Origin: Pempheris klunzingeri
Lineage: Eukaryota > Chordata > Actinopteri > Acropomatiformes > Pempheridae
Assembly (NCBI RefSeq): GCF_042242105.1
Contig: NC_092029.1
Location: forward strand, 9,975,885-10,039,884
DNA length: 64,000 bases
Reading direction: 5' to 3'
Shown: positions 2,901-64,000 of the stretch, in pieces
How the letters are laid out: each line of letters starts with the position of its first letter
How positions within the stretch are numbered: position 1 is the stretch's first letter
Translations under genes and position numbers: made by a program
Notes under the pieces: generated by a model
Databases searched by the model: none
What the model was told of the DNA's origin: nothing
Seen by the model: only the letters and a program-made list of their open reading frames with translations

Positions 2901-3197
2901 CTTTCTTGACAGTTTTGGCCTCATTGGACCTGGTGGCCCAGCACATGTAGCATGTTTTCATGCTGTGGCTGTGGCGCTCTCTGTTGGCGAAAATCATCAC
3001 TTGCTGTGATACAAATAAAAGAACGATCATATTAAAAGTTAAAATAAAACACATTCATCTGTATGGAATATGCCACACAATAGATATATTTTTACCAGGA
3101 CATCTTTAACAACAAACAACGAGGGTTACACATATTTTATTCAGGCATTTTCTGGGAAGCCTACTCGACTTTCGTCAAGCTGTTTAAGGACCCCAGG

Positions 3198-6100
3198 ATG
3201 TCCATGCTTGCTGAGCGTACGTACATTACTTCTACGGTTTTATTTGCTTTTTCCTTGTTTCTTTTTGTGTATTAATAGGTATTTATGATATGTGTGATCG
3301 CAAACAACCGCCGCTACCAGCTATTGAGAAAGCTTCTTCCGAAAACATTCAATTTTCCGTATTTGTTAAACTATTCGGGTAGCTAACATTAGCATTAGCT
3401 ACAGCAGTCTGTGTAAACACGTGCTGTCTATTCTAACTGTAACTGCAGCAACTTGCCATCATTTTAGCTGAATGTGTTGTCCTCAATGGAGAATATTTTG
3501 TTGAATTTACATGCTGATTTAAATGAACTTGCTGTAAACGGTGACACATTGGTCTCTCGCCGAATAGTAGAGAGTTGGATAAAAAGAAACTGGCAGCTGT
3601 CTGTCACTCTGTTTACATGCACATGACACCTCATGTCCTGTTGTTTTATTGGATTACTGTTATGTAATGATGTCTCTGCTCTCTGTCCAGCCCGGAGGAA
3701 ACAGAAGTGGTCTGTTGACCCCAGGAACAGCACCTGGAGCAACGATGACTCCAAATTCGGCCAGAAGATGCTGGAGCGAATGGGCTGGTCCAAGGGCAAG
3801 GTGAGTGTGCTAAGGAAGGATCTCCACTGTGTCAGGCTGGGGCAGCAGAGGTGGTTTCTTTAGACACTGTCAGTGAATGGATGAGCTGTTGAATATCTGT
3901 CACATGTTATGTCCTCTCTTCTCCTGTTTAGGGCCTGGGCAAAACTGAGCAAGGCTCCACTGACCATATCAAAGTCAAAGTTAAAAATAACAACTATGGT
4001 CTTGGAACCAGTGCCAACTATGAGGTCAGTACATTTGACATTTAATACAGATTATTAGATTATATTAATTATATTATATATATTTTATATCATTATATAT
4101 TATATATATATATTATATATTATATATATTAGATTACATTTCTCACAGGATTATTAGTAGATAAGTACGTTTTAATGCTTGGGAACAGTGCATTTTTATG
4201 TGATGTGATCGGGTGTTTTTAAACTGCTTGGACAACAACCATTGCAGTCTCAATAATTAAAATTATTTGACTACAGATTTGAAAGACAGTCTTACTATAC
4301 AAATATTAAGACTGTCCCCTTTAATACATGATTTCAAAGAACTATAGTAATATTAAGTTAGCATGGCAGTCATTTTTCCAAGGACTGACACAATGGTTCA
4401 AGTTGATATTAATATTTATAGGTAACAACCTTATCTCATGCAAACATTTGCACTTCTACATGTATTATATCATTTTGGTGCTTTTTGGTTTTATCGAGAG
4501 GAATGTCTGATATTTAGCAGACCCTCATTGATATAAACAGGTTACTACGAGTAACACCAGTTACTATAACGCAGTTCAACAGCCCCACAAACTGCTTCCT
4601 CCAAAATGACCATAAAGTTAACTTACAGACAGACTGAAAGACAGTTTCAACAAAAACTGAACACAATAATCGTTTTGACAGTGGATATTAATCTTCCATA
4701 TAACATAATTTGACACTATGATATGATAATGTCAAATAGAAGTGTCACAGTTCTGTTGTGTTGAGATCTGCTGTGTTTGCAGGACAACTGGATCGCCCAC
4801 CAAGATGACTTCAATGAGCTTCTGGCTCAGCTGAACAACTGCCATGGTCAAAACAGCAGCACTGGTATGTACGAACAGCAAGTGTTACAGTGTGTAACGT
4901 GTATATGCTGCAGTGTCTCCAAACGGGTTGTGAATTATTTTGTGGTGGTTAACATCACTGGGTGTTAGTGTGAACAGTGTCACTTACACTTCACAAACCA
5001 ATGTCTCTTAATTAGGTGGGTAGTAACATAGATTACATTATTCACTAGAGTTGACACTTGCATTCAGTTGTAACTGTCCCAACACTGTGGCAATGTGTCT
5101 TACTATGCATGACCACCAAATTACTATGTAGCTTTTTCTGCTTGGTTGGTCCATCCGTTGGACAGTAGAGGGTGCTGCACTGCAACATTTAGCAGAGACA
5201 ACATCTGGATAGAGTCACTGTCTCACATTAAACGTCTTCATTATCGAAAACAAAGCACATACAGAATACTGTTCTGACCCAGATGGTAAAGATGTGCATT
5301 GATAATGAACATGTTGAATTTATAGCTACATGCGGTATTGTTTTTAATAATACTGTCTTATTGTCCGTAGAACCTCCACCGGGGGAGCCAAAAGGATTCA
5401 GTTTGGAAGAGAAGTCCAAGACCTCCAGAAAGAGGGTGCATTACATGAAGTTCACTAAAGGTGGGTTTATGTTTTGGCAGAGACCACGGGGATAAACATG
5501 GCTCAGGAAGATACTAATTGTGCACACAGTGTTTTCTTTTCTCAGTCTCACCTGGCTTAACTTTTGAAACTGCATCTGTATTATCATGTCAGCCAAACTG
5601 CTTCCAATGTTCACCACATAGCAGAAATTGTCCTCCATTTCCTTGCAAAATTGCATAGCAACCTCTGCATTTTTTACAGTCCACACAGACAGCCTCCTTT
5701 AACCATGGCTGATCCTTGTGCACTTGGCTCAGACCACAGATGCTGATCAGAGCTCTATCAGCCTGTGCTGGGTCAGTCGGCCCGGTCAGTGCTCGGGGAG
5801 GCTATTAATAACTCTTCCCTTTACTTTCATTACTCCTTTACACGTCAGGAAGTCAAGATTTGCTGGTCAAGGCCAGTACACCGATAGGCACGAGGAGGAA
5901 TTTAGTGTTCAGGACCAGTGGAGACCAAAACGAGTAACCAGTAACCTATATTTTATTGCTGAGTCGCTTTACTTGAGCATGGAGCATAGTTGAGTGATTA
6001 CAGGCACAATTTCTTAATAAGATTGTCAGGGTGTGTATTACTGTTGGTGTTTTGTGTGCGAGTTAGATGTGCTATTTTTAAAATGTGGCCAATGTGGATT

Positions 6101-26169: not shown

Positions 26170-26453
26170 GCGCTCCCCCCATCCACCAGGAAAGACTGAA
26201 TCATAACTCATAAGGAGGAGCCGCTGCCTGAGCGCATCTGTGGTTTCTCCCCAAACCTGTGGTGACATCTGACTGCAGCCTGTGGTAGCTCTGCTCATCT
26301 GCTCAGTGCGCGAAACTCCGCAGGATTTTTTTAAAACGCAGTTGCCGTAGTTCTCCCCAGCATTTTTAATTAGCCCGCAGCAAACTTCGCCACAACTTGC
26401 CAAAGACAGAGCGAGAAGCGCGTCTCGAGTTCTGGAGAGGAGAGAGCGCGCAG

Positions 26454-26729
26454 ATGGCAGCTCTCATCAGCGCGTACTCGTCCTGGCCGGAGTCCTTCGA
26501 GTGTCCTCCAGGTGACGGGGACGTGCCCGACGGACATGGCCCGCACAGGACCCCCGTGGACAAGGTGCCGGAGCCGCGGATCAGACGGCCCATGAACGCG
26601 TTCATGGTTTGGGCCAAAGACGAGCGCAAACGGCTGGCGGTTCAAAACCCAGACCTGCACAACGCCGAGCTCAGCAAAATGTTGGGTGAGATGACAAAAA
26701 GTTATTTAAAGCTCTATTTATGTCTAGAA

Positions 26730-26786
<57 letters not shown>

Positions 26787-28700
26787 GGTACTTTTTAACC
26801 GTCCACACACTTCCCATCAGGCCTCAGCTGTTTTACAGAAGTTTTTAAGTTGTTTCCAACATTCAAAGGATAAGTGAATAAAATTTTAATCTATAAAAAC
26901 TTCTAAAGCGTGTTAAAGTAAATACAACCAAACGTTTTTAAAGTAATAAAATGTAAAATTTAAAAAAGTAAATTAATCGCAGCCCTTAAAGTTTGAAGCG
27001 CATCCCCCCAAAAAATCCCCTCAATTCAAAGGTAAATATCAGCGAACCGCACAATTCGTTCGAAGACAGACAGGAAGGGTAGAAATGTATGGTTTCGCGT
27101 TGGATTTAGATAACGTGGATTAGTGTTTATGTTAACCTCAAAATCTGGCACTGTCACAAATCGGAAATCATTTTAAAGCCAATTCGAAAACAGTAATTCA
27201 TGTAAAAAAAAAAAAAAAAGCTTTCATAAATAAAGGTGAAATTGGCTCGTGTTTATCTAAATTCATTACTTGAAGAACAGAACAGAAGAACTTCAGAGGG
27301 AGCTGCGGTGAAAGCTTTAATATTAGTCAGATGCTTTTTCTTTAATTAAAAAATAATAATTCACACACCTTAGAAGTAAAGGATGACTCCATGTCTTTTT
27401 ATGGCGCTGTTTAACGTTTGTTTAATTTTGGAAAGTATGTTGAAATCCCACCATTATTTATTTGAGTTTAATATCTTAATAACCAAATGAAGTTGTATGA
27501 GTCTACAACTTTAAAAATGGTCGAGAACATATTTATGGATATTTTACAAGATGTAGGAATTTTTAGTGTGAGAAAATATATTCATTATAATTGTGTGGTT
27601 GTAACAGACTTAAAACATGGAATAAAAAAGGTGCAGACGTAAACTATAAACTGATGTTGAACCTTATTCTGGATTTTTATTTAGAATTAAATAAACTTGT
27701 GTCTCATCTTCCTGCAGGTAAATCATGGAAGGCCCTGACTCCCCCTCAGAAGAGGCCCTATGTGGAGGAAGCAGAGAGGCTTCGGGTGCAGCACATGCAG
27801 GACTACCCCAACTACAAGTATCGCCCTCGCCGGAAGAAACAGCTGAAACGCATCTGCAAGCGGGTGGACCCCGGCTTCCTCCTGAGCGGCCTGGCCCCTG
27901 ATCAGAACGCCCTGCCCGACCAGCGAGCCCTCTGCCACCCCCTCGACAAAGACGAGGGCAGCCCTAATGGCATCAGCGGCAGGTTTTCCAGCCCCAGCCC
28001 TGCTCTGCCCAGCGTCAGAAGCTTCAGAGACCCATCCGGCTCCAGCAGCAGCTTCGACACCTACCCCTACGGTCTGCCCACTCCTCCTGAGATGTCTCCC
28101 CTAGATGCCATGGACCACGAGCATGTACCCCCCTCTTATTATTCAACATCTGGTAGCTCCTCCGTCTCCTGCTCCTCCTCAGCCTCTTGTCCAGATGAGC
28201 ACCACCAGAATCAGACACACATGGGCAGCCCGCCCCCTTACCACACTGACTACACTCAGATCCACTGTGGTGGCACACACATAGGTCACATCCCTCACAT
28301 GTCCCAAACCGGCGGCGGTGGACTGATCCCAAGTCCTCCACTGGCTTACTACAGTACCTCATCTTTCCCTCAGATTCACCACGGGCTCCACCAGGGCCAC
28401 CTGGGTCAGCTGTCCCCTCCACCGGAGACACAGGGTCACCTGGAGACTCTGGACCAGCTGAGCCAGGCTGAGCTTCTGGGTGAGGTGGACCGCAACGAGT
28501 TTGACCAGTACCTTAACTCCACAGGGACCGGGTTCCATCACGAGCAGGGCAGTAGCATGACTGTTACAGGACACATCCAGGTGGCGTCTGCCGCCGCCAC
28601 CTCCGCCTCTGCGTGTCCCAGTAGCACCACGGAAACCAGCCTCATTTCCGTGCTTGCGGACGCAACGGCGGCCTACTACAACAACTATGGCATCTCGTAA
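26454..28700 (+). CDS. sox7: SOXF-group HMG-box transcription factor SOX7, 2 coding exons
   Basis: Coding exons 26454-26685 and 27718-28700 join within a Gly codon (G|GT; donor GTGAGA, acceptor CTGCAG) to give 404 residues (human 388). The start is the first ATG of the N-terminus [18 protein letters not shown], in good context (CAGATGG). The HMG box is at about residues 42-120: [20 protein letters not shown], then KSWKAL, ending [12 protein letters not shown]. The intron falls inside the box, as in other SOXF genes. Further SOX7 marks are the [11 protein letters not shown] segment, [13 protein letters not shown], the beta-catenin-binding motif [10 protein letters not shown] (about residues 335-344) and the C-terminus [18 protein letters not shown]. 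Family knowledge: a nuclear activator in endothelial, haematopoietic and endodermal development that also dampens Wnt/beta-catenin signalling. No defects are visible. Confidence 0.97.
26730..26786. repeat. (TTA)n microsatellite in the sox7 intron
   Basis: About 19 uninterrupted TTA/ATT triplets, 45 bp inside the only sox7 intron. Likely to vary in length between individuals. Confidence 0.95.
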
Positions 28701-35801: not shown

Positions 35802-37592
35802 TCACGCCTCCTTATTTTTCTGCTTCTTGTTCTTGTACTGGCGGTGGTGTTTCGGTGTTAGAGCTTTCTTGAGGCGCCTCCACAAAGACGGCTGGCCAGT
35901 GACTTGGGCCTCCCCCAGTGGGGCGACCTTATCAGTGACTTGGCCCTCCCCCAGTGGGGCGACCTCGTCAGTGACTTGGCCCTCCCCCCATGGGGCGACC
36001 TCATCAGGGACCTGGGCCTCTTTAAGTGGGAAAACCTCCTTTTTGACTTGGGCCTCCTCCTTTGGGGCGACCTCTTCGGTGACTTGGGCCTCCTCCTTTG
36101 GGGCGACCTCTTCGGTGACTTGGGTCTCCTCCAGTGGGGCGACCTCTTCGGTGACTTGGGCCTCCTCCAGTGGGGCGACCTCCTCTGTGACTTGGGCCTC
36201 CTCCTTTGGGGTGACCTCTTCGGTGACTTGGGCCTCCTCCAGTGGGGCGACCTCCTTGGTAACTTGGGCCTCCTCCTTTGGGGCGACCTCTTCGGTGACT
36301 TGGGCCTCCTCCAGTGGAGCAACCTGGGACTCCTCCGGAGGGGCAACCTCCTCTGCGACAGAAGTGTTCTGTGGTGCATGGAGGTCAGTTGTGATCAAGT
36401 TGTTTACCTTTGAAATGGGTTTTTTTCCAATCTGCTCACACACCTGGAGCATCATTGGGTTTTTGTAGGTATCAACTTGTTTCTGCAGTTCCTGCGTCTT
36501 TAGTTTGAAGACCAACAGTTTAAGAGAGTCTCTTTCGCCTTTCAGCCCTTCTACCAGGCTCAGGACTTTGGTGACTCTCTCATGAAACTCAAGCCTGACT
36601 TCCTCCAGTTCGTTTTGCAGGAGGTCAGCTCTCTGCCTTTCAGCCTGGACTTGATCTGTGAGATCTTTGATCAGGTCGTCTTTGTTGTTGTTCGACCCGT
36701 CCAGGGGCTCGGCTGCGAGGGCTGTGGAGGAGAGACTCTTGATTTCCTGTTTGAGCCTCACCACCTCCTTGTCTAGATCGAACCTCAAGCTCTGCTGCTC
36801 CTTCAGTTTCCACTCTGCTTCTCCACGCAGGTACTAAGAAGTTTGCTGCTCCCTACGTCTCAAACCTCTTTCATAGTGAAGGTCGGCTAGGGCTTTCTGC
36901 AGAAGCCGGTGCAGAGGTGGATCCCTCCCCCAGTAGTATGGAGTTGACTGGGCATCCCACTGGTTTTGAGGTTGCTGGGCATCCCAGTGGTTTTGAGATG
37001 ACTGGCCACCCTGGTGGTATTGAGATGGCTGGCCACCCTGGTGGTATTGAGATGACTGGCCACCCCGGTGGTTTTGAGGTGGCTGGCCACCCCGGTGGTT
37101 TTGAGATGACTGGCCACCCTGGTGGTTTTGAGATGACCGGGAATCCCAGTAGTATTGAGATGACTGGCCACCCTGGTGGTTTCGAGATGACTGGGAATCC
37201 CAGTAGTATTGAGATGACTGGCCACCCCGGTGATTTCGAGATGACCGTGAATCCCAGTAGTACTGAGATGACTGGCCACCCCGGTGGTTTTGAGGTCGGT
37301 TGCCACCCCGGTGGTTTTGAGGTGGCTGGCCGTCCCCGTTGATTTGAGGCGGCTGGCCATCCCCGTTGTTTTGAGGTGGCTCCTCCCTCTGGGTGTTTTC
37401 ATGAGGCTCTCTTGCATCCATCGGAGCAGGAGAGACCTCATTAGACTCCCAATCCATATTTTCGACAGCGCTGCTGCCATCAACAGGTAGTGTAGCTAAT
37501 AACTCCTGATTTTCCTCCTCCAACTCCATGATCTCTCCCCAGGTGAGACCCGCAGGCAGCATTGCCTCGACTGGACTGCTGTTGGCTTTCAT
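35802..37592 (-). CDS. Unrecognised two-part tandem-repeat gene with one in-frame TAG
   Basis: I do not recognise this gene. From the ATG at 37592 the frame runs 252 codons to TAG (36836-36834), then continues in the same frame without another stop for 343 codons to 35802. Part 1 begins MKANSSPVEAMLPAGLTWGE, then holds a Gln/Gly/His/Tyr-rich array of about 9-residue units (QYHQGGQPS type) and ends ALADLHYERGLRRREQQTS. Part 2 starts with a probable coiled coil (KEVVRLKQEIKSL, QAERQRADLLQNELEEVRLE), then at least ten 12-residue acidic repeats (VTEEVAPKEEAQ type) and a basic tail KNKKQKNK. A minus-strand TATA box and an AATAAA flank it. No good splice sites remove the TAG. It is either a recently broken gene, a read-through gene, or has an error at the TAG. 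The first ATG in part 2 is about 165 codons in, so part 2 is unlikely to be translated alone. Confidence 0.5.
36020..36340 (-). repeat. 36-bp coding minisatellite (VTEEVAPxEEAQ)
   Basis: Tandem 36-bp units in the second half of the minus-strand repeat gene, alternating between a Lys-Glu and a Leu-Glu form (APKEEAQ/APLEEAQ). Diverged units flank it on both sides. It also yields spurious open frames on the plus strand. Confidence 0.85.
36940..37370 (-). repeat. 27-bp-type coding minisatellite (GGQSSQ/NHRGG)
   Basis: Tandem units of about 27 bp, some expanded, encode (Q)NHRGGQPPQ, QYHQGGQSS and YYWDSRSSR variants in the first half of the minus-strand repeat gene. On the plus strand it appears as GAGATGACTGGCCACCCTGG repeats. 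Confidence 0.85.
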
Positions 37593-37737
37593 TGATCTTC
37601 TTAATGGAACCAATCGCAGTTGTAACGGGTTTTCAATGGTTGTTGAAGTGTTCTTCGAACGGTGGTGTGTCTCGGATGTGTGGTGAACGTGTATCTCTCT
37701 CTGTCTATCTCCCTCGGCTCAGTTTGGGTTCCGTCTC

Positions 37738-39257: not shown

Positions 39258-40156
<899 letters not shown>

Positions 40157-46062: not shown

Positions 46063-49033
46063 GACAACCATTTATGCTATAGCAAGACCAGTTAGTATGT
46101 AATAAGAAATGTTAGTATTTTGCATGTTTTGATATCTCGCTCAGGTGTATCACTAAAGCAAGAGACAAAACAGCAAAAACTACAGCCATATAACACTGAC
46201 TGAAGGGACAAAGGGTGGCAAATTAAGGAAGGAACATTATGCCTAGTCATTGAACACTGAGCCTTCAACTGCTTTCGTGTTTAACTCCCTTTATGCAATG
46301 GTGAAGTCCAAGTCATGTGTCCAAAGCCTCAGCAGATTTCAGTGCAGTCTCAGAGTGATTAGCAAGGCTTTTCATTCTATCCTTAGCTTCCCATGTATCT
46401 GATTAGCAGGTAGGCCTGCTTCTGGAGGGAGGCTTTTGAACTGGTTTCTCGTTTCTCTGCTTGCAATAGCTCTGCTGTTTCTTTGGGAGTTTACATCTTA
46501 CATGCTGTGGTTTGGAACTACTTTTCCATTCAAGTCTTTTATGATTGTGGAACATGTGAGTATAAATGCCTAGTTCATAGATATATTGTGGCTGGACTGC
46601 TTTAGCTTTTGTACATTAAATGGTATTTGCATAGCAATAGAAACATGCACTTATAGCTGAAAACAGTAACACAAGAAACAGCACTGTCAAAAGATACATT
46701 TAAGTTAAAATTTAAATCATGTTGGGCAGTAGTTTGTGTAGTAGTTTGATTCAGAAAGGAAGAAAGGATGCAATAATCCATGGTAAACTGGATGAACTCA
46801 GGCTGGTCTGTATGCAGGATGTGATTTTTATTTTCCTTGTTTGAGCCCTTTTAGGAGCCTCAGTTGGCAAACATGACACCTTAGGGATAAGTAGCATTAT
46901 TCTAGGGATCCAAGGCCACACATGTTTCCTGATCATGGTGAATAAAGAAAAATACTTTTTGTATTTGTTGTCCACGGTTAAAACAGGGACTTATTTTGCT
47001 TAGCAGAGGCTAGTTTGCAGGATAATTGTCTCTGCCATGTTGAAGAGACATTTCATACATTGAAATAACTACATTCTGCAACTAGAGTAGACAATAGCTG
47101 GAGAGTAGTTTTCCTTACATACAACTGCCCTGTATACCCTCTCTGCACTTTTAATATCACATCCTCCTGTGGCACTTGTAATGTTGGCATCCTGCAAAAA
47201 AATCACTAAAATCATATTATTACATGGAAATTAGTTATAATTTCTATCGGTGGCCCTGCATTTTTATAATTTATATTTAGTCCTATGCTTTGGCTTGATC
47301 CTGAGATCATGAAAAACATGACGGACAATGTCAGCATCCAGTATGACCATACAGGGCTATTTTACTGTATGACACAGATGATATATAGATATTATAACAT
47401 CATTGACAGAATAATGTATTAAAAACTTCACTATATATATACGTTTTTTCTGTGCTCCATAATCCTGGATTATATATACTTGATGTATAACTATTTCTAC
47501 TCAGGTTATATTCTAAACAGTGCTTTTGTATGCTATAAATAAAGACACCCTGGATATAATGAAGGTTCAACCTGAAGACTTAAAGGTTGACAACATGGCA
47601 TAAGAGTGTTTACAGTTGTCAGTTTTCTCAGCCAAAATATTCAGCTGGAGTAAACACATGCTGCTTTACAAGTGCATTTACAACATTGTTAATACAAGAA
47701 CAAGGACAACCGCCAAACCTGTTCTGTATGTGTGTCAGTCAAGCTTAGCCTATTTCTTAGCCCCCCCAATTTGACTCATTTTTATTTGCATTTCATAGTG
47801 GGCTTGCATCCCTTTCCATCAGTAAACAATGAATTGTCTTTACCTCCTAGTATTGTCACAGTAAGAAGTCATTGTGCTTATTGCTGATATTGCTGCTTTT
47901 TATGGGTAATCCTTGCGTTATTGGTTGCAGGAAAAGCTGGATAAGAATGTCTTTTCTTCAGTGACAGTGACAATTGCTGAGGTAATGTCCACTTTCACTG
48001 CTAGCACAGACTTAAGCTCATTATTTAAAGTCAGTTGGAGGCTTTATTTGTGGTTGTATCCTCATTATCCCTATCTCCATTTACTCTTTGATCTTCTCAG
48101 CAGTCTGCACATACAATATATAACAACCATGTCATGTGTATGCCACTAAAAAATGTAGTAGATAATTGCATTGGTGAGGGATTTCAACAGCTGCTAAAGT
48201 GTGAACAAATCTATTCTCAGTTTGGATACATTTGTCTGTTTTCTGTCGAACAGTATAATAACATAATATACAGTAAACAAGTCTATAGTGACTATGAAAA
48301 AGTGTATGAGAGCATTCAAGTCTCTGAACTAACACCAAGAAAATAATTGTCTACAAGATTAATGTTTACAAAGATTCTCAGTCATCCAGGTGAGTTTAAG
48401 ATATCAAGAAGTACTAAATCTTGAACTGAGATTCTTAGATCAGTGACGAAACAACTTCAGGAATAAAACAGCAAATCCAGTTGTCTTTGACTTTGTACTT
48501 CTGGACACAAGATAAACGGTATTATACTGATTAAAGCACTAAAGGTGTCTCTATGGAAGGATTTTCTTTTTCAGACGGGCCTAATGTCAGCCCTCATCAA
48601 ACATGTTTAGATACTACTTTAGACTTAAGTACTTTAGAAAAGACATTGAGGAGCTACACTCCAGGAAAAGCTAAAGTAGACATGTACATCCAAGTAAATT
48701 CGCTGTCTGCACACAGATTATCCTTGGATAAAAAGTTGCATGTGAAGGAAACAGCTACTGTATTTCTATCATGTTTTTGTTTGCCTTGAACATTTAATCA
48801 CCTTAAGTCGCATTCTAGCTTGTTCTTCAACCTGTACTGGTTTTTTTTTCACCTCTTATTTTTATTTCTCCTTCAGCCTGGGATGAGTGGGAGCCATGCA
48901 GATGTGTGGTGCAACACCTTCCCCTTGGCAGCATAAAAGAATCAAGAAACCCCCCTTGCCTGTGTTGACCTGCCCTCCTCTTCTGCTCACCTGAGACCAT
49001 CCTTCATCCAGAGCAGAGAGACTACCATCCAAA

Positions 49034-49528
49034 ATGTCCTCCCACAAACGCAACTTCCATTGCTTCAATGCTGTAGGCGGTGAAGGCTCCCATAAGGCTT
49101 TTGTCCACACTAGCCGGTTTCCCAGGATCCCCCAGCATGGCATAGTGGCCCATCATGAACCTCTGGAGGAATGCTACCTTTGCTCTGAGTATAGACATGC
49201 CCAGACCCTGGACGCATTAGAGACACAGGTCACACCTTTGTGTCACATTCATACACCATATCAGCATCATCATTCGCACCAGTATGCTCTCAGGCCACCG
49301 ACCAGGCCTGAGGAGCACCCTGTGGCACATTCAAGCCAAGGCCGCCACATTCATCAGCATCACAGGTACAATAAGAGGGTGGTGCTGGTGAAGAACAGCA
49401 ATCCGTCACTCAGGAAGACCATCGTCCTACACCGCAGGAGTCTACGCAGTTTTGGGCTTTTCTTAGAGGAAGTTTCTGAGTTCATGCAGTACCACATCAG
49501 GAAGCTGTACACTCTGGAGGGCCGCAAG
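49034..49528 (+). CDS. rp1l1: rp1l1 first coding exon (DCX2 start; DCX1 apparently lost)
   Basis: 165 codons from ATG (context CCAAAATGT, in-frame TGA 42 nt upstream) to the donor AAG|GTGAGG. An acceptor with a long pyrimidine tract ends at 48876, leaving 157 nt of 5' UTR in this exon. Residues about 115-165 match the second doublecortin domain of RP1/RP1L1: VVLVKNSNPSLRKTIVLHRR, FLEEVSEFMQ, IRKLYTLEGRK. Before this, only EECYLCSEYR recalls the very end of the first doublecortin domain; its KxxFxxxGDPQF beginning is not visible here. A His-rich linker (HTPYQHHHSHQY) lies between. Family knowledge: RP1 and RP1L1 bind axonemal microtubules of photoreceptor outer segments through DCX domains and organise disc stacking. 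This exon is followed by a 3.3-kb intron. Confidence 0.85.
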
Positions 49529-50140
49529 GTGAGGTCATAAACACCTGGAACTAGCTGATTATTTAAAGATATGTTTAGTTTTTTCTTGGTATTCTCTAAC
49601 CTACATAGAGTTTGGGGGCAGAGGAGTTGTTTGAGATTTTATTCTGATGTGTCTTCAAGAAACTGCTGTTTCCAAGAGGACGTTTCTGTACTCAACCTTC
49701 CCTTATGTTTAAATGAATTGAAAAAGATGGCCTAATTGGATATTAACAGAAGTACTATGATTTGCATTTCTCTACTTTAATTTGGCTTTCAAAAAGTGTT
49801 GGTTTAAAGTGTAGTCACACAGTGCCGTGTAAGAGATTGAAAACAAGAGTGAAAGAGAGGCCTCTAGTGACAGGACTGATTCCCTGCTAAATCAAGTGGA
49901 GAGCTTTGTTAACTATCAGCCCCACTGCAAATGACACATGGCAGAGAACCTTTTAATATAGAATTGTAGCTTACTGAGCACAAACAAATGATAATGTGGA
50001 ATGCTGAATATCAAAAACTTTTAAGTCAGTAGAAAACAGCAGAGTGAAAGGATCACAATACCAATAGTAAGTAAGGTGCAATTCTGAGAGATACAGGAAG
50101 TCTTTTTTACCAGCTGCTATAAGGTTTTATAATGGAAAAA

Positions 50141-52969: not shown

Positions 52970-53164
52970 GTATGACAAACAGTTTGTTGTCACAGACTTA
53001 ATTTCAGAACTATGTTTTTGAAAATTAATTATTATTTCCACTAATTTTTTTTTTAGAAAATGATCTGCAATATACAGCATAGTATAAATGTATGGTACAT
53101 AATGTGTAATAGAGATTAATGTCATATTTTTTGTTTTTTGTTTTTTTATTGATGGTAAATGAAG

Positions 53165-56100
53165 GACTGCCACCAAAGAAAAGGGTCGATCCAAAACTGG
53201 AATCTGACAACAGATCTACTAGACACTTGTCATCCGACAAGTCATTACCAGATGGAACTGACTCTCCAGATAATGTAGATTCCTGCTCACACACTGATGG
53301 TGAGAGGAGAGAAGATGATATAGAGAAACGGGTCCGTGTTAATAAAGATGGCAGTTTGTCTATGGAAATGAAAGTGCGCTTCCGACTACAAAATGATGAA
53401 ACACTACATTGGTCGACACAAGTAAGAAAGACAACAGGCAGGTCCTGTGGCAACCTCCAAGGACTTGATAACCCTTATTTTGCACAGATAAGTGATCAAA
53501 GCTTTTCAGAATCTGAAAACATCTCTGCTGGTGATCAAGATGAGGCGTACATTACCAAGCACCATCAGAGACATAGAGAGGAGCCTCACTGTCCTCACTG
53601 CTGCAGTCACTGCCAGGATTATGACATTAGGAGAAATATCCCAGGGACACATGGAGCAAGTCGCTGCATTCAAACTTCCAGCTCAAGTGCATCCTCACAC
53701 ACAATGGTCTGTAGAAAGACAGTGGTTGAAAGGCAAACTATGTCTAGGTCAAGCGAAGATCATACAGAAAAAGTGGTGGAGAGAGAAACTTGTGTGAAGC
53801 AGAGAGTTGAGGCAGCTGAAACTATAGAGTACTGCACTATCAGGAGTGACACTTGCTCACCTAAGTGCGAGTTGCAATCCTCCACACTGGACAACTGTAA
53901 GGTGTGTGTTGACAGTTCCCCAAATGATCAGGTTGATGTAAAAACTGCTCAAACATCAGAGCAAGAAGAACAAACAGGATTGGCTTCTGCTGAAATATTA
54001 ACAGACCATGAGGGCAATCAAGATGATGAGGATGATGACAACCCGCCAAATGCTTCAGGAGCTTCTTCTCAGGAGAGTAATCCTGAAAGGAAAGAGCCGA
54101 CTGGAAGTGCTGTGCCACATTTATCCCTGAGCCATACAGATAGAGCCTCCAGCGCTTCAGATCACTCAAGCAAGTCAAGAAAATCCAAAAAATCATACAC
54201 TTGCAATTGCAGAGTGTCTAATGATACAAAAGGACAAATCAAGGCCCAAGGTGAAGAAGAAGGTGAAATTCAAAGAGATCGATCAAGTGCCATGTCTGTC
54301 AAATCAAATGCCTCTGGCAGATCAAATAAGTGTGAAGAAACAGAGTTAGAAGTTGTACCGGAAAGATCCAAAAGTGCCATGTCAGTTCATTCAAATGCCT
54401 CCAGAAAATCCAGATCTGATGTTTTAGATGTTACAGCTGAAGAAATACAAGCACATGATGACAAAGAAACACAAGAAAGACCATTAAGTAACATGTCTGT
54501 TAAATCAGTGAAGTCAGAATTGCAACGTAAATCAGAGAATGCAAATGAAGAACGAGTATTAAGTTCCATGTCATCAAAATCCAAGGCCTCTATTAAATCA
54601 AAGGGATCACGAGTGTCTTCTCTCCCAGATGAAGAGCAGGCTGAGGAGGAGACTGAACAAAGGACAACCAGTGCCATGTCAGCTGCATCAAACATCTCTG
54701 CAGAATCTAAATTAGGAACATCTGAATCATCTGCAGAGGAGAGCATTCAAATACCAGATGAAGAAAATGAGAATGAAACTGGACAAAGAGCACAAAGTGC
54801 AATGTCAGTGAAGTCAAATGTTTCTGTAAAATCTAAAACATCTAGCACTTCTGAAGCTCCATCCAAAGATAATACAGAGGTAAAATCTGAGGGCAGTGCA
54901 CATTCTACTGTGTCATTAAAGTCACAAAATGCTGATGAATATTTTGAGGAAGAAGGGGAAGCTGAAGGGTCTCATGATAAAGAGAGAGTGCCAAGTGCCA
55001 TGTCATCCAAGTCAAATACCTCTGCTAGATCTACACATTCAAAAGCATCTAAGCTTCAAGATGAAGAAAATGCCAAGGATGATAGTCAAGGAAGAGCCTC
55101 TAGTGCCATGTCAGCAAAATCAGCAAAGTCAAGTAAAGGAGTGTCGTCAAACAAAGATGATAATGAGGAGGGCACAGTGGAAACTGTGGAGAGAGCTCCC
55201 AGTACCGTGTCTGTAAAATCCATAAAGTCAAATGCATCTGCAAGGTCTAGAAAATCAGAGAAATATAATGAGTACAATCAATCAGATCTTTCAGCCCAGG
55301 AAAAACAGACTGAAAATAAAGAAAGTGAAAGAACACTGAGTGCAATGTCAGCCACATCTATCAAGTCAGATGTATCTGCAACATCTAGAAAGTCAGAACG
55401 CTGTGAAAAAATGAATAAAGAAAATGCTGAAGATGTAGATAGACCAATCGAGAGAGCGACAAGTGCTTTGTCAGCTAAGTCTAATGCATCGTCAAGATCT
55501 ACAGAATCCAAGAGATCTGAACTTCATGCAAGAGAAACTGTTGATGGAAATGCTGAAGAGGACGGTGGAGGGAGACCACAAAGCACACTGTCAGTCAAAT
55601 CAGCAAAGTCAGTGAAGTCAAATATTTCTGGAAAATCTAGCAAATCTAAATCATCTGATGTTCTGAAAAAAGAAACTGGCAATCTTGAGGCTGTAAATGA
55701 TGGGGAGCAAACTGAGAAAAGAGCCGAAAGCTGCTATGATGAGATTGAGGAAACATCAAGCTTCTCCTGTGTTTCAGCTGAAGAAAATCCTGTCAATCAT
55801 GATGAGGCTGAGAGAGAACCTAGTGTCAAGTCAAAATCATCTGCAATATCCAGTAGGTCAAAAGCCTATAAATTGATGTCTGAAAACGATGATGATGATG
55901 ATGATGATGATGAAGAAATTGCAGAACGAGCAACGAGCGCAATGTCAGCAAAATCTGCAAATTCAAATGCCTCTGCAGTTTCTACAAAATCAAAAGCTTC
56001 TCAAGTCCTTCCTAAACATGATAATGACATCTGCAATGAAGGAGACACTAAACAGGAAACCAGCAAAAGATCACCAAGTGCACTGTCAGTGAAATCAGCA

Positions 56101-59100
56101 CAGTCAGGTGTGTCAACAAAATCAACACAATCAAATATTTCTGCTAAATCTAGTAAGTCAAAGCACGGTACTGTTTCAGCTGAAGAAAATACTGAACTTA
56201 GAGAAAGAGCTCCAAGCAATATGTCAACTGCCTCTGCTAAATCTGCAAAGTCAAATGCTTCAGCAGTATCTAAGAAATCAAGAGGTTCTGCAATTCCATC
56301 TGAAAACTGTGGAGATGCGTCTGAAGAAGTACTTATTGAAGGGGAGACGGAAGATAGATCAGTGAGCTCAATGTCAATACAGTCAGTTCAGTCAAATATT
56401 TCTACAAGATCAAATAAGTCAAAATGTTCTGCTCATGTTCCAGCTGAAGGAGGCTGTGAGAGCCCTGATGAAGAAAATGACAGAGAGCAGACTGAAGAAA
56501 GAGCAGAAAGCAGCTTGTCAGCCCAATCAGTCCAGTCACATGTGTCTGAAATATCTATTAAGTCTGCAGAGAGAGCACCTAGTGCTTTGTCAGTCAGATC
56601 TGCAAAGTCAACTATTTCTGTCAAATCTACTAGCACTTGCATTCCTGATGAAGGAGATGGTGAGGAGGAAACTCAAGAGAGAGCACTCAGTGCCATGTCA
56701 GCCAAAACTGCAAAGTCCACTATTTCTGCAAAATCTACTAAGTCAAAAGCTGTAGATGGTCCAGTTGAAGAAAATATATCTGATCAGGAGGAACATGGAG
56801 AGAGAGCGCCAAGCAATCTATCAGTAAAATCAAGAAAATCAGCTAAATCAAATGTTTCTACAATATCTAAAAGATCGAAAGTCTCTGAAGTTTGCTTGGA
56901 AGACAGTATTGACAATCTTGAGGAAAAAGTTGTTGAAGGGGAGAGTGAAGTGAGAGCAGTGAGTTCAATGTCTGCCAAGTCAGTTCAGTCAAATATTTCT
57001 ATAAGATCAAATAGGTCAAAATGTTCTGCTCGTGTTCCAGCTGAAGAAAGCTTTGAGAGCCCTGATGAAGAAAATGACAGAGAGCAGACTGAAGAAAGAG
57101 CGGAAAGCCGCTTGTCAGCCGAATCAGTCCAGTCACATGTGTCTGAAATATCAATTAAGTCTGCAGAGAGAGCACAGAGTGCCATGTCAGCCAAAACTGC
57201 AAAGTCCACTATTTCTGCAAAATCTTCTAAGTCAAAAACACTGAATGGTCCAGCTGAAGAAAATATGTCTGATCAAGAGGAACATGGAGAGAGAGCTCCA
57301 AGCAATCTATCAGTAAAATCAAGAAAATCAGCTAAATCAAATGTTTCTACAATATCTAAAAGATCGAAAGTCTCTGAAGTTTGCTTGGAAGACAGTATTG
57401 ACAATCCTGAGGAAAAAGTTGTTGAAGGAGAGAGTGAAGTGAGAGCAGTGAGTTCAATGTCTGCCAAGTCAGTTCGGTCAAATATTTCTATAAGATCAAA
57501 TAGGTCAAAATGTTCTGCTCGTGTTCCAGCTGAAGAAAGCTTTGAGAGCCCTGATGAAGAAAATGACAGAGAGCAGACTGAAGAAAGAGCGGAAAGCCGC
57601 TTGTCAGCCACATCAGTCCAGTCACATGTGTCTGAAATATCTATTAAGTCAGCAGAGAGAGCACCTAGTGCTTTGTCAGCTAAATCAGTAAAGTCACAGG
57701 TTTCTGCAAAATCAAACGCTTCTAAAGTACTTTCTGGCAAAACCACTGACATTCCTGATGAAGGAGATGGTGAAGAGGAAACTCAAGAGAGAGCACTCAG
57801 TGCCATGTCAGCCAAAACTGCAAAGTCCACTATTTCTGCCAAATCTACTAAGTCAAAAGCTGTAGATGGTCCAGCTGAAGAAAATATATCTGATCAGGAG
57901 GAACATGGAGAGAGAGCTCCAAGCAATCTATCAGTAAAATCAAGAAAATCAGCTAAATCAAATGTTTCTACAATATCTAAAAGATCGAAAGTCTCTGAAG
58001 TTTGCTTGGAAGACAGTATTGACAGTCCTGAGGAAAGAGTTGTTGAAGGAGAGAGTGAAGTGAGAGCAGTGAGTTCAATGTCTGCCAAGTCAGTTCGGTC
58101 AAATATTTCTATAAGATCAAATAGGTCAAAATGTTCTGCTCGTGTTCCAGCTGAAGAAAGCTTTGAGAGCCCTGATGAAGAAAATGACAGAGAGCAAACT
58201 GAAGAAAGAGCGGAAAGCCGCTTGTCAGCCGAATCAGTCCAGTCACATGTGTCTGAAATATCAATTAAGTCTGCAGAGAGAGCACAGAGTGCCATGTCAG
58301 CCAAAACTGCAAAGTCCACTATTTCTGCAAAATCTTCTAAGTCAAAAACACTGAATGGTCCAGCTGAAGAAAATATGTCTGATCAAGAGGAACATGGAGA
58401 GAGAGCTCCAAGCAATCTATCAGTAAAATCAAGAAAATCAGCTAAATCAAATGTTTCTACAATATCTAAAAGATCGAAAGTCTCTGAAGTTTGCTTGGAA
58501 GACAGTATTGACAATCCTGAGGAAAAAGTTGTTGAAGGAGAGAGTGAAGTGAGAGCAGTGAGTTCAATGTCTGCCAAGTCAGTTCGGTCAAATATTTCTA
58601 TAAGATCAAATAGGTCAAAATGTTCTGCTCGTGTTCCAGCTGAAGAAAGCTTTGAGAGCCCTGATGAAGAAAATGACAGAGAGCAAACTGCAGAAAGAGC
58701 GGAAAGCCGCTTGTCAGCCACATCAGTCCAGTCACATGTGTCTGAAATATCTATTAAGTCAGCAGAGAGAGCACCTAGTGCTTTGTCAGCTAAATCAGTA
58801 AAGTCACAGGTTTCTGCAAAATCAAATGCTTCTAAAGTACTTTCTGGCAAAACTACTGACATTCCTGATGAAGGAGATGGTGAAGAGGAAACTCAAGAGA
58901 GAGCACTCAGTGCCATGTCAGCCAAAACTGCAAAGTCCACTATTTCTGCCAAATCTACTAAGTCAAAAGCTGTAGATGGTCCAGCTGAAGAAAATATATC
59001 TGATCAAGAGGAACATGGAGAGAGAGCCCCAAGCAATCTATCAGTAAAATCAAGAAAATCAGCTAAATCAAATGTTTCTACAATATCTAAAAGATCGAAA

Positions 59101-62100
59101 GTCTCTGAAGTTTGCTTGGAAGACAGTATTGACAATCCTGAGGAAAGAGTTGTTGAAGGAGAGAGTGAAGTGAGAGCAGCGAGTTCAATGTCTGCCAAGT
59201 CAGTTCGGTCAAATATTTCTATAAGATCAAATAGGTCAAAATGTTCTGCTCGTGTTCCAGCTGAAGAAAGCTTTGAGAGCCCTGATGAAGAAAATGACAG
59301 AGAGCAGACTGAAGAAAGAGCGGAAAGCCGCTTGTCAGCTGAATCAGTCCAGTCACATGTGTCTGAAATATCAATTAAGTCTGCAGAGAGAGCACAGAGT
59401 GCCATGTCAGCCAAAACTGCAAAGTCCACTATTTCTGCAAAATCTTCTAAGTCAAAAACACTGAATGGTCCAGCTGAAGAAAATATGTCTGATCAAGAGG
59501 AACATGGAGAGAGAGCTCCAAGCAATCTATCAGTAAAATCAAGAAAATCAGCTAAATCAAATGTTTCTACAATATCTAAAAGATCGAAAGTCTCTGAAGT
59601 TTGCTTGGAAGACAGTATTGACAATCCTGAGGAAAGAGTTGTTGAAGGAGAGAGTGAAGTGAGAGCAGTGAGTTCAATGTCTGCCAAGTCAGTTCAGTCA
59701 AATATTTCTATAAGATCAAATAGGTCAAAATGTTCTGCTCGTGTTCCAGCTGAAGAAAGCTTTGAGAGCCCTGATGAAGAAAATGACAGAGAGCAGACTG
59801 AAGAAAGAGCGGAAAGCCGCTTGTCAGCCGAATCAGTCCAGTCACATGTGTCTGAAATATCTATTAAGTCAGCAGAGAGAGCACCTAGTGCTTTGTCAGC
59901 TAAATCAGTAAAGTCACAGGTTTCTGCAAAATCAAATGCTTCTAAAGTACTTTCTGGCAAAACCACTGACATTCCTGATGAAGGAGATGGTGAAGAGGAA
60001 ACTCAAGAGAGAGCACTCAGTGCCATGTCAGCCAAAACTGCAAAGTCCACTATTTCTGCAAAATCTACTAAGTCAAAAATACTGAATGGTCCAGCTGAAG
60101 AAAATATGTCTGATCAGGAGGAACATGGAGAGAGAGCTCCAAGCAATATGTCAGCCAGATCAGCAAAGTCAAATATTTCAGCAGTGTCTAAGAAATCAAA
60201 AGCTTCTGACATGCCCTCTGAACACAGTACAGAAATTGCTGATGCAGAGAACGAATGGAGAGTGAGCTCAGTGTCAGCTCAGTCAGTCAAGTCAAATATT
60301 TCTGCCAGATCAAAAAAGTCTAAATGTTCTGATGGTCCAGCTGAAGAAAGCTTTGACAGCCCCAGTGAAGAAAATGATATAGAACAAACTGAAGAAAGAG
60401 CAACAAGCTGCATGTCAGTCAAATCAGCTCAATCTCATGTTTCTGAAAGATCTATTAAATCACAAGCCCCCTGTGTTACTACTGATGATGTGGCTGAACA
60501 CAAAGAAACTACAAACAGGGCCCCTAGCGCCTTGTCGGCAAAATCAGCAATGTCCCATGCGTCAGATAATTCTGTTAAATCAAATACTGAGCTTTCTTCT
60601 GGCAAAACGACTGACATTTGTGATGAAGAGAGTGGTGAAGAAGAAACTCAAGAGAGAGCACTGAGTGTAATGTCAGCCAAATCCACACAGTCAGGCATGT
60701 CAGTAAGATCAAGCAAGTCAAAAGTCTCAGATGTTCCAGTTGAAGACTATGTTGCAGCACATGACAAAACTGTAGAGAGAGCAGCCAGTGCTATGTCAGA
60801 CAGATGTGCAATGTCAGATGCTTCAGCATTATCTCAAAGATCAAAAGATGCATTTTCAGGGGAAGGAAGTGCTCAAGAGGAAAACAAAGAGAGAGCGCCG
60901 AGTTGCATGTCTGATAAATCAGTCAAATCAAATGTTACTGTAGAATCTGTGACTGCCAAAGGAATTACAGCAAATGCTGAAGAAACTGTAGAGCAAGAAC
61001 CAAGTGTAATGTCAAATGCTTCAAGGATCACTGCTTCTCAGGCTTCTGGTGGCAATCCTGGTGAGGAAAATATCAAAGCAGACACTGAGGAGAGATCACC
61101 TAGCAAAATGTCAGCCAAATCAAATATTTCGGTTTCATCAAGGAGCACAACAGCATGTGAATTTCCTTCGGAAGAAAACACTGCAAATGATGCAGAAACT
61201 GTTCAAAGACCACCAAGCACCCTGTCAGGTAAATCAGCCAGATCTGCCAAATCAACACAGTCAAATATTTCTGCAAAGTCTACGAAGTCAAAAGTCTCCA
61301 ATAGTCCTGGGGAAAAAAATCATGAGGACACTATTGAGCGAGCACCAAGCAGTACTTCCATCAAATCAACAAAATCAAGAATGTCAAATGTCTCAGCAGT
61401 GTCAAAGAAATCCAAAGCTTCTGAGGTTCCTGCTGAGGATGGAGCTAACAATGAAAAAAACACTGAAGAAGACGCTGAGGCGAGAGCAATGAGCTCAATG
61501 TCTGTCAAATCAATGAAGTCAAATGTAACATCAATATCTACAAAGTCAAAAGCTTCTCATGGTCCTCAGAATGTAAACAGTGAAGAAGATGGTGGGAATG
61601 AAGTTGAAAAGAGAGGGCAAAGTGCCATGTCAAATACATCATTAAAGTCTACAGGAACTTTGAGTCTTTCAAAATCCTCTGACATTTCAGCTGAGGAAAA
61701 TGAGGCCGATCGTGAGGAAACTGTAGAGAGAACACCAAGTGCCATATCAGATCTATCTTTGAGATCAAGGAAATCAAAAGTTTCTGAGCAGACAACTGAA
61801 ACACACGGAGAGGAAGATCAAACAGAGAGGACTTCAAGTGTTTTGTCAGTGAAGTCGAGCGTCTCTGCAAGAAGCATGAAGTCCAACGTATCTGGACTTA
61901 ACCCTACTAAGAGGACTGGATGTGATGAAGAGACTGATGCAAAAGCAAGTAGTGCAATGTCAACTAAATCAGGAAAATCAAATAATTCAATGAAATCAAA
62001 GAAATTAACATCTCCTGAAATTCCTTGTCCAGACATTCCTAATGAAGAAAATGCTGAAGATAAATCTGTGAGACCCCCAAGTACCATGTCTGCAAAGTCT

Positions 62101-64000
62101 GCGAAATCAAAGAAATCAAAAATTTCTGATTGTCCTGCTGATGGAAATACTCATGAAAAAGAGGGGAGAACACATAGTCCTGTGTCAACAAAATCCAATC
62201 GATCTGAAATGTTTATGTCTGAAGTCCCAGATGTAACAATTGAGGAAAGTGAAGACCGAGCACCTACAGAATCACCAAAGTCTACAGTTTCAGTACATTC
62301 AAAAAAGTCAACAATGTCTGAGGTAAAAGAAAAGAAAAGTGAGGGGCGACCAAAAAGTTCTTTATCAGTCAAGTCAAATTTGTCTAAGAGATCTCAGAAA
62401 TCCAAAGTAACTGGTATTTCAACAGCTGTTGATGTTACCACTGAGGAGAAGACCAGTGTTTCTCCAATAAATACAGGGGTTGTGAATCCTGAAGACAAAA
62501 GTAAACCCACGTCTGATTTGCATGAAGAGAAACATGAACATACAGTTGACAAGAGCAGTTGTCACTCTAAGACAAGGAAGTCAAGTAAGCAAGACACAAG
62601 GAATACAACTGCAAAGGTCCTTCCCAAACCAAAGTCGGCTGCAAATCCTGCTGTGTCAGAAACCTGTCAAACTGCACAGCCACAAGAAGGAAATAAACAT
62701 CATGTGATTTGTCACACAGGTTCCAGTGAAAGTGATTTGTCACAAACTCTGTCCAGTTCAGATATTGTCAAAGACATCTGCGAGACTCCGGCCACTGGAG
62801 AGCCCAATGTGTCTAAGAAGATAACAAATGGTCCATTAGAAGCTGCAGACATAGGCAGTGTCACTGATAACAAAAGTGAGAAAAGCAGCAAATGCAGACA
62901 CAAGAGCACAAATGCTGATGACTTTGAGCTGGTCCCATCTAACCTGCCAAATGCATCCTCTACTGAGGTTGTGCATGAGTGGCTGAAAACAATAATAACA
63001 GACCGTGATATGTATGACATGGAGGAATTTAAAGACAACTGTGATGAACAAAAAACTGGTCACACAACAGAGGAATCTAATAGAATGGAGGATAATGAAA
63101 ACAATGAGGACGCTGCAGCTGAGGATACAGAAAACACAAATGAAGGAGTTGCAATGAACAGTGTTCCTAATAAGGACTGCCAAACTAGCACAGAGACACT
63201 AAAAGCAGATGATACCTGTACTCAGAGAGATGATGTTTCAAAAGTATTTAACTCCTCTATACAGGTAATGAAAGTACTTTTAAATCCAAAGCTTGACAGA
63301 TGCAACAGTTTACCAGAAATTTCTCCAGTGTATGGACGTAAATTAAGTACTTCAGCCAGAGGTCTTCTTGATTGCCTTGTGAAGCTGCAGTTAATAGACC
63401 ATTATCCTAAAAATGCAAATGAAAAGGATCAAAGATACCAAGAGCTAATGAATATTCTTCAGTCTCTTTGGCTTTGCGATCCTCCAGAAAATGAACTAGT
63501 ATTTAAGAAGGATGATCACCATTCTGTGGATGATGAATTCAATCATGCCTCATCCTCTGGTGTTGATGTCAACAGTGGCTCCACAGGCTCGGGGAAGAGT
63601 AGTGACGGAGCAAATGGTGACGCAGCTCAACCGCATAACAGCACGGATATGTTAAAGAAAGCACAAGAAGACGATGAAGGTGAAGCAGAGGCAGATTGTC
63701 AATGGACATGTGAGAGACAAGAAGAAGGAATGTATGAGGAAAAACAAAAGGAAGATGATCAAGCAACAGATGACACTATTAGAAGCAATGAGAATCTGCT
63801 AGAATTACCTGAAACACCACCCTCCTCAAACAAGTGTTCAGGAAATGACAGCAATGACCAAAAACTTCCAGAGAAAGTTGACACAGAATGTCAAGAGGAC
63901 ACCAGCTCTGAGAGTCCTTCCCTTGTTCAAAGAGCAAAATTAGACAAAAGGATTTCTCAGGATCCTGATCCTGTTTGGGTCTTAACCTTATTAACCAGAA
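53165..64000 (+). CDS. rp1l1: rp1l1 giant exon, open to the window edge (partial)
   Basis: The exon follows an acceptor AATGAAG behind a T-rich tract. The frame has codons starting at positions 1 modulo 3 and stays open to 64000 (about 3,610 codons), giving at least 3,830 residues in total against about 2,400 in human RP1L1. In order: RVRVNKDGSLSMEMKVRFRL (about residues 276-295), the family block just after DCX2; a Cys/His cluster CPHCCSHC (about 362); acidic and Ser-rich linker; a huge Ser/Lys modular repeat (about 595-3300); VVHEWLKTI (about 3489); the family block QVMKVLLNPKLDRCNSLPEI followed by SPVYGRKLS (about 3590-3618); SSGVDVNSGSTGSG; and DPDPVWVLTLLTR at the right edge. The C-terminus lies outside the window. 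Linkage to sox7 and pinx1 favours rp1l1 over rp1. Confidence 0.92.
54286..62400 (+). repeat. rp1l1: Ser/Lys modular repeat region of rp1l1 (about 65-70 modules)
   Basis: Each module reads roughly ERAxSxMSxKSxKSNxSxxSxKSKxS followed by an acidic spacer with EEN/EEE, 25-50 residues in all. I counted 21 modules before 56780, 27 within the 1,110-bp higher-order array and about 19 after it. In many modules Ser occurs at every third residue, so the DNA has a 9-nt rhythm. All units keep the reading frame. A run of eight GAT codons (poly-Asp) lies at 55888-55911. Confidence 0.9.
56784..60113 (+). repeat. rp1l1: Three tandem 1,110-bp higher-order repeats (489 + 621 bp) in rp1l1
   Basis: Unit starts fall at about 56784, 57273, 57894, 58383, 59004 and 59493, with spacings alternating 489 and 621 bp. 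The array ends near 60114, where the next module diverges. The 489-bp form has four Ser modules and the 621-bp form five. Copies differ at only a few bases per 100 (for example GACAATCTTG, GACAATCCTG and GACAGTCCTG at equivalent places). Both lengths are multiples of three, so copy-number change would keep the frame. Confidence 0.92.

Follow-up and report, generated by a model that had tools for sequence, protein, structure and literature searches.

In the Drosophila proteins Smoothened and Ci, R-x-x-S motifs are followed by sites for casein kinase 1 (CK1), with a few PKA/CK1 clusters per protein, and the disordered tail of Neurofilament-H carries many KSP repeats, whose phosphorylation turns it into a charged brush. 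For Smoothened, the nearest working analogy to the region described here, phosphorylation antagonizes clusters of Arg and alters the conformation of the tail, according to the available portion of one report (PMC3114773). Serines at a spacing of three residues form a single cluster, the FASP region, in the clock protein PER2, matching the CK1 consensus pSxxS (pS, phosphoserine); as set out in the accessible part of the source, priming is slow, and CK1 delta/epsilon then phosphorylates the sites one after another, with CK1 itself acting as the primer (PMC7012598). In RP1L1, a gene whose mutations lead to human photoreceptor disease (excerpt of PMC7600334), repeat expansion takes the form of a human 16-residue repeat that is rich in Glu, Gln, and Gly (excerpt of PMC12206149). 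Here, we describe a long region of the rp1l1 gene of the fish Pempheris klunzingeri, contained in a 64,000-nucleotide stretch of DNA (hereafter, the window; C18:9975885-10039884, contig NC_092029.1) in a genome of 646 Mb, in which serines at the same spacing of three are organized into modules.

Judged from its translation, this region differs from PER2 in having about 70 mostly basic, Arg-headed modules in a ciliary protein in place of one cluster, and it differs from Smoothened and Ci, with which no homology is claimed, in having dozens of modules with acidic spacers. Neurofilament-H resembles it in carrying numerous Lys-Ser repeats, there within a disordered tail, but belongs to another family, and its KSP repeats are proline directed and not spaced by three. 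An SxxS array in RP1L1 is not described in the titles and beginnings of abstracts that we found in the open literature, and the main text of a report on zebrafish rp1l1, a protein of 2394 amino acids with doublecortin and RP1 domains, lacks the word serine and mentions "repeat" three times, never in connection with the protein (PMC7600334). We find that the serine lattice is under selection, and the region, probably disordered, may be an array of pSxxS phosphorylation clusters that are primed through Arg and sit on a photoreceptor protein linked to microtubules; we favor this reading over its rivals and regard it as a serious possibility although somewhat short of probable.

Serine spacing and module anatomy

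A preliminary description reported strict Ser-x-x-Ser periodicity over thousands of residues at 54286..62400, an interval that encodes 2704 amino acids, 591 of which are Ser. Measured against 2000 shuffles, Ser pairs are in strong excess at lag 3 (408 versus 128.8 expected; z = 31.1), as well as at lags 6 (z = 24.3) and 9 (z = 18.3), are depleted at lags 1, 2, 4, 5, 7, and 8 (z = -8.4 to -10.9), and follow a lag-3 series that is down to chance by lag 21. The proposed autocorrelation thus bears out the periodicity, but the pattern is modular rather than strict throughout, its phase restarting in each module. Exact spacing-three runs of at least four contain 443 of the 591 Ser, and Ser predominates over Thr in runs of at least five (445 Ser and 14 Thr). 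The 1936 residues downstream show no Ser lag-3 excess (z = -0.5).

Part of the region consists of a young tandem array (56676..59933, plus strand), in which 489-bp units are arranged in 1110-bp super-repeats with 94% matches, the 1110-bp step being read from the row starts of the repeat listing. It includes the module quoted in the preliminary description (57301..57375, plus strand), whose translation, SNLSVKSRKSAKSNVSTISKRSKVS, does have nine Ser at exact spacing three. This 25-residue unit recurs in six identical copies, at 56812, 57301, 57922, 58411, 59032, and 59521, such that the copies within the array are not independent. Because of these identical copies, the periodicity test was redone without 56676-59933, and the lag-3 excess persists (234 versus 75.7 pairs; z = 23.5), including when shuffling is confined to blocks of 15 to 60 residues (z = 23.7 to 24.5). 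As for the array itself, it may be polymorphic in length, and the assembly may not give its copy number reliably; the minus-strand open reading frames (ORFs) of 162 to 169 amino acids that lie opposite it are presumably shadows of the repeat.

Defining a module as 4 to 10 Ser/Thr at spacing three, and excluding overlaps, a recount of spacing-three runs yields 69 non-overlapping modules with 488 Ser/Thr in a region spanning 54148..62421 (plus strand), the first of which starts at 54148, upstream of the 54286 given earlier. Removal of modules that are at least 70% alike leaves a non-redundant set of 44 modules holding 297 Ser/Thr acceptors. The typical module reads E-R-A-x-S-x-[M/L]-S and then S-x-[K/x]-S for 4 to 10 Ser/Thr, with E-R-A-x-S-x-[ML]-S-[AV]-K-S-x-K-S as its fuller form, and is followed by an acidic spacer. 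Lys or Arg was said to fill the position just before Ser often, and it does so at 111/297 acceptors; the sharper feature is an Arg at position -3 of the first Ser, which is present in 36 of the 44 non-redundant modules and 61 of all 69 modules, as against 4 of 127 Ser outside runs. The heads of successive modules are 24 to 50 residues apart, once 80, and there is, therefore, no fixed long period. Net charge averages +4.1 in modules and -5.7 in spacers; 59 of the 69 modules are positive, and 59 of the 61 spacers are negative, in agreement with the acidic spacers noted previously.

Selection on the serine lattice and descent of the modules

Three old copies of the unit, starting at 56215, 57301, and 60142, were aligned as proteins and read back to codons; in each of the three resulting pairwise comparisons, one copy of the pair served to define the run positions. 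In-phase Ser codons differ by 9 synonymous and 1 nonsynonymous changes, 11 and 1, and 10 and 0, corresponding to ratios of nonsynonymous to synonymous substitution rates (dN/dS) of 0.04, 0.03, and 0.00; the other codons in the same comparisons have ratios of 0.72, 0.47, and 0.65, and dS itself is 0.41 to 0.56 at in-phase Ser codons versus 0.32 to 0.63 elsewhere. Exact tests of synonymous versus amino-acid-changing codons, with run columns assigned by majority across eight copies, of which six are young, give P values of 6e-5, 9e-7, and 2e-4, and five pairs in shorter alignments range from 2e-4 to 9e-3, the weakest being 60142 with 61348, where 18 run Ser show 3 changes. TCN codons have more scope for synonymous change, for which dN/dS corrects but the exact tests do not, and the comparisons are not independent because they share sequences. 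The serine lattice is, nevertheless, under selection, and the residues between its serines have changed.

The same genome contains a second rp1l1 gene on C24 and further family genes on C15 and C21, both of which we take to be rp1, each having both DCX domains in one exon. The Ser lag-3 excess is marked in the C24 paralog (z = 11.0) and small or absent in the rp1 genes on C15 (z = 1.9) and C21 (z = 0.3), which have 0 and 1 runs of at least four Ser, respectively, such that SxxS modules mark rp1l1, not rp1, in this genome. In a search for a third gene with modules, queries made from one piece of the window gene and one of its paralog gave no matches but C18 and C24 among the best candidates scored, apart from a weak match of the window piece on C19 (E = 0.58) with six stops. 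Of 12 pattern matches obtained in looking for relatives on viral contigs, none was confirmed.

Modules of the two rp1l1 genes share a codon phase. Among the 44 non-redundant modules of the window gene, AGY encodes the first Ser in 40 and TCN the second in 43; in the C24 paralog, 13 of 17 modules have Arg at -3 of the first Ser, and all 13 have AGY first and TCN second (14 and 16, respectively, among all 17), with four Ser encoded by AGY in columns 6 to 18 of these R-headed modules. On the strength of this common phase, the modules of both genes are read as descendants of one ancestral module. Such descent, together with the presence of a young array, is what would be expected if an old module had simply been copied many times and its spacing had no function, as with the polymorphic human 16-residue repeat. 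Passive expansion of this kind is, however, highly improbable. It does not account for the near-zero dN/dS at in-phase Ser between old module copies (0.00 to 0.04, as opposed to 0.47 to 0.72 at other positions), a new observation, and the pattern is kept in the diverged C24 paralog. Moreover, neighboring 9-mers of one module resemble each other no more closely (0.47) than do 9-mers taken from different columns of different modules (0.50), and there is thus no sign of recent 9-bp slippage.

Predicted structure of the module array

The regular period, along with the rarity of Thr in the runs, could also be that of an ordered fiber, such as a 3-10 or polyproline-like helix, a beta-solenoid, or a polar zipper, in which the lattice would be structural and not phosphorylated; an extended helix or solenoid was among the initial proposals. 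An AlphaFold model of a two-module stretch, built from nine aligned copies, speaks against this: its confidence is low (predicted local distance difference test [pLDDT] score of 58, predicted template modeling [pTM] score of 0.13), and DSSP returned nothing for it, possibly owing in part to a failed DSSP step. With few, partly near-identical rows as input, the model is weak negative evidence on order, and the test of a helix or solenoid, neither of which it supports, is accordingly a weak one. There is no PDB sequence match. Ala/Val (z = 4.8) and Lys/Arg (z = 3.6) have a lag-3 phase, but Met, Leu, Ile, and Val have none (z = 0.3). We consider an ordered lattice improbable, and the model fits a module array that is probably disordered.

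Phosphorylation of the modules

From these features we infer phosphorylation, an order of kinases, and an electrostatic or mechanical role. An Arg-directed kinase would phosphorylate the first Ser of a module (R-x-x-S), and CK1 would then act on the remainder, each phosphoserine priming the Ser three residues on and the reaction zipping from the N- to the C-terminal end until it halts where the spacing breaks at an acidic spacer. Each module, with a charge of about +4 at the outset, would end up strongly negative, and a block polyampholyte able to associate with itself or hold acidic microtubules and membranes would become an extended, repulsive polyanion. On a protein attached to the outer-segment axoneme, such a change would adjust how far the discs lie from the axoneme or how they touch it. 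In its fullest version, fish Rp1l1 would be a regulated phospho-zipper, with dozens of Arg-primed CK1 ladders able to take up several hundred phosphates per molecule, that holds axoneme and disc membranes apart by an adjustable electrostatic force, with light, clock, or ciliary kinases as its possible drivers; this version strikes us as conceivable but rather doubtful. If it is true, we know of no larger array of SxxS ladders.

The initial proposal of CK1-type phosphorylation holds insofar as the spacing fits the pSxxS consensus, Ser prevails over Thr as suits CK1, most modules are basic (59/69), and the Ser lattice is selected, which strengthens this reading, but it lacked the priming phosphate that CK1 requires at pSxxS sites. 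The conserved R-x-x-S head would be a natural priming site, and the frequency of Arg at -3 (36/44) suits a separate priming kinase. In other systems, loss of AMPK alpha2 from mouse rods goes with differential phosphorylation of RP1L1, in a report whose available portion does not give the positions of the sites (PMC11143937), and CK1alpha gathers in primary cilia upon Shh stimulation, as stated in the accessible part of PMC3114773.

The heads themselves bear on which kinase would prime. If the ciliary MAK/CILK1/CDKL5 group were the primer, Rp1l1 would be a direct substrate of these kinases; MAK localizes along the photoreceptor axoneme, its zebrafish substrates being described as unknown in the available text (PMC11273301), and CDKL5 uses RPxS (PMC6293278, in part). 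Among the 36 R-headed non-redundant modules, however, R-A-x-S accounts for 18, R-P-x-S for 5, and R-P-x-S-[AGPS] for 1. Since strict R-P-x-S is confined to so few heads, a MAK or CDKL5 primer is possible but not favored, and we assign little likelihood to it; RPxS as the general form of the head was rejected on the same count. A CK2-type reaction, zipping from the C-terminal end, is unlikely, since just 3 of the 44 modules have an acid three residues beyond their final acceptor.

Alternatively, there may be no zipper at all, with basophilic kinases (PKC, PKA, CaMK, or SRPK-like) acting on each Ser independently by way of the Arg head and the neighboring Lys/Arg. R-x-x-S heads and the acceptors in S-x-[K/R] (114/297) and [K/R]-S (111/297) contexts speak for such kinases, whereas 183/297 acceptors are without S-x-[K/R], and the feature that stays constant is the three-residue spacing, which basophilic kinases are, to our knowledge, not known to read. 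Independent phosphorylation is, on balance, unlikely.

Several points weigh against an array of Arg-primed pSxxS clusters. CK1 is anion directed, and Lys/Arg between the serines may be a hindrance to it, and the S-x-[K/R] contexts suit PKC-type kinases as well. Eight of the 44 non-redundant modules have no Arg head. Some run Ser do change, with 2, 0, and 2 run-column changes in the three exact tests and 1, 2, and 3 run-Ser changes in the three comparisons with 61348, and the comparisons of conservation draw on paralogs and internal copies of one genome. Selection on Ser means that Ser matters, which is short of phosphorylation, and our literature search found no phosphorylation data for any fish Rp1l1. 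Lastly, the window gene may bind microtubules more weakly than its paralog because most of its DCX domain 1 appears to have been lost.

Gene identity and other features of the window

The last coding exon of rp1l1, taken here as an ORF on the plus strand (53113..63999), remains open to the end of the window and continues into the adjoining DNA as far as a stop codon at window position 68209, amounting to 5032 codons without a stop. The exon has no Pfam match, and the module region has no NCBIfam match. Upstream, a 5' coding exon (48995..49540, plus strand) contains an ATG frame that includes the initial portion of DCX domain 2 (Pfam DCX, E = 2.5e-8, residues 144-181). With rp1 DCX1-DCX2 as the query, tblastn recovers no more than the DCX2 part in the window, whereas in the C24 paralog it finds DCX2 together with both pieces of DCX1; DCX domain 1 of the window gene seems reduced to a possible remnant. 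Early in the last exon is a segment conserved in the RP1 family (53311..53475, plus strand; residues 67-121 match rp1 on C21), with 45% identity to rp1 on C21 over 55 amino acids (E = 2e-13) and 47% identity to the C24 paralog over 138 amino acids (E = 7e-30). A conserved C-terminal domain, recognized by its match to C24, begins at 63961..63999 (plus strand) and continues in the adjoining DNA; used as a query, it finds only C18 and C24, the latter 66% identical over about 100 amino acids (E = 1e-32). In pairwise comparison, which is not a tree, the window gene and the C24 gene are more similar to one another than either is to the rp1 genes. Encoded beyond the window (adjoining DNA 1-4208), the final 1142 residues of the exon are very acidic, with 37% Asp/Glu, and recall the Glu-rich repeats of human RP1L1.

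On the human map, RP1L1 has PINX1 and SOX7 as neighbors, and RP1 has SOX17. The window contains an HMG box and a Sox 17/18 central domain at 26370-28700 (Pfam), which, from sequence features familiar to us, we take to be a SOX7-like gene, and a frame at 21928 that is presumably PINX1-like and has no Pfam match. The DCX half-domain, the Sox neighbor, the paralog, and the RP1-type segment support the original naming of the gene as rp1l1. The C18 and C24 genes may be ohnologs from the teleost duplication. No C24 match is listed for a SOX7-like query, and the Sox neighbor may have been lost beside the C24 paralog (C24:9212001-9260000); on C21, at a distance of about 17 kb from rp1, there is a weak match of Sox type (E = 0.1).

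Elsewhere in the window, minus-strand frames at 35802-37718 contain two different protein repeats, one a 12-residue EEAQVTEEVAPK type with a DNA period of 36 bp and the other of the QSSQNHxGG type, 9 or 18 residues in length, with DNA periods of 27/54 bp; these frames have a weak Golgin_A5 match, below the cut-off. Also on the minus strand, 39291-39848 is a transposase fragment (Pfam HTH_Tnp_Tc3_2, E = 2.4e-15).

Discussion

We know of no function for the long middle part of RP1L1. Certain module positions in this part of the protein are subject to strict purifying selection, and their spacing corresponds to the consensus of a known kinase; the function of the middle region thereby becomes testable. 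In zebrafish, a gene termed "rp1l1b" was set aside as nearly double in size and lacking features that define the gene (PMC7600334). The window gene, with its reduced DCX1 and a last exon of 5032 codons, would fit that description, and the selection on its serines suggests that an "rp1l1b"-like gene is a working gene.

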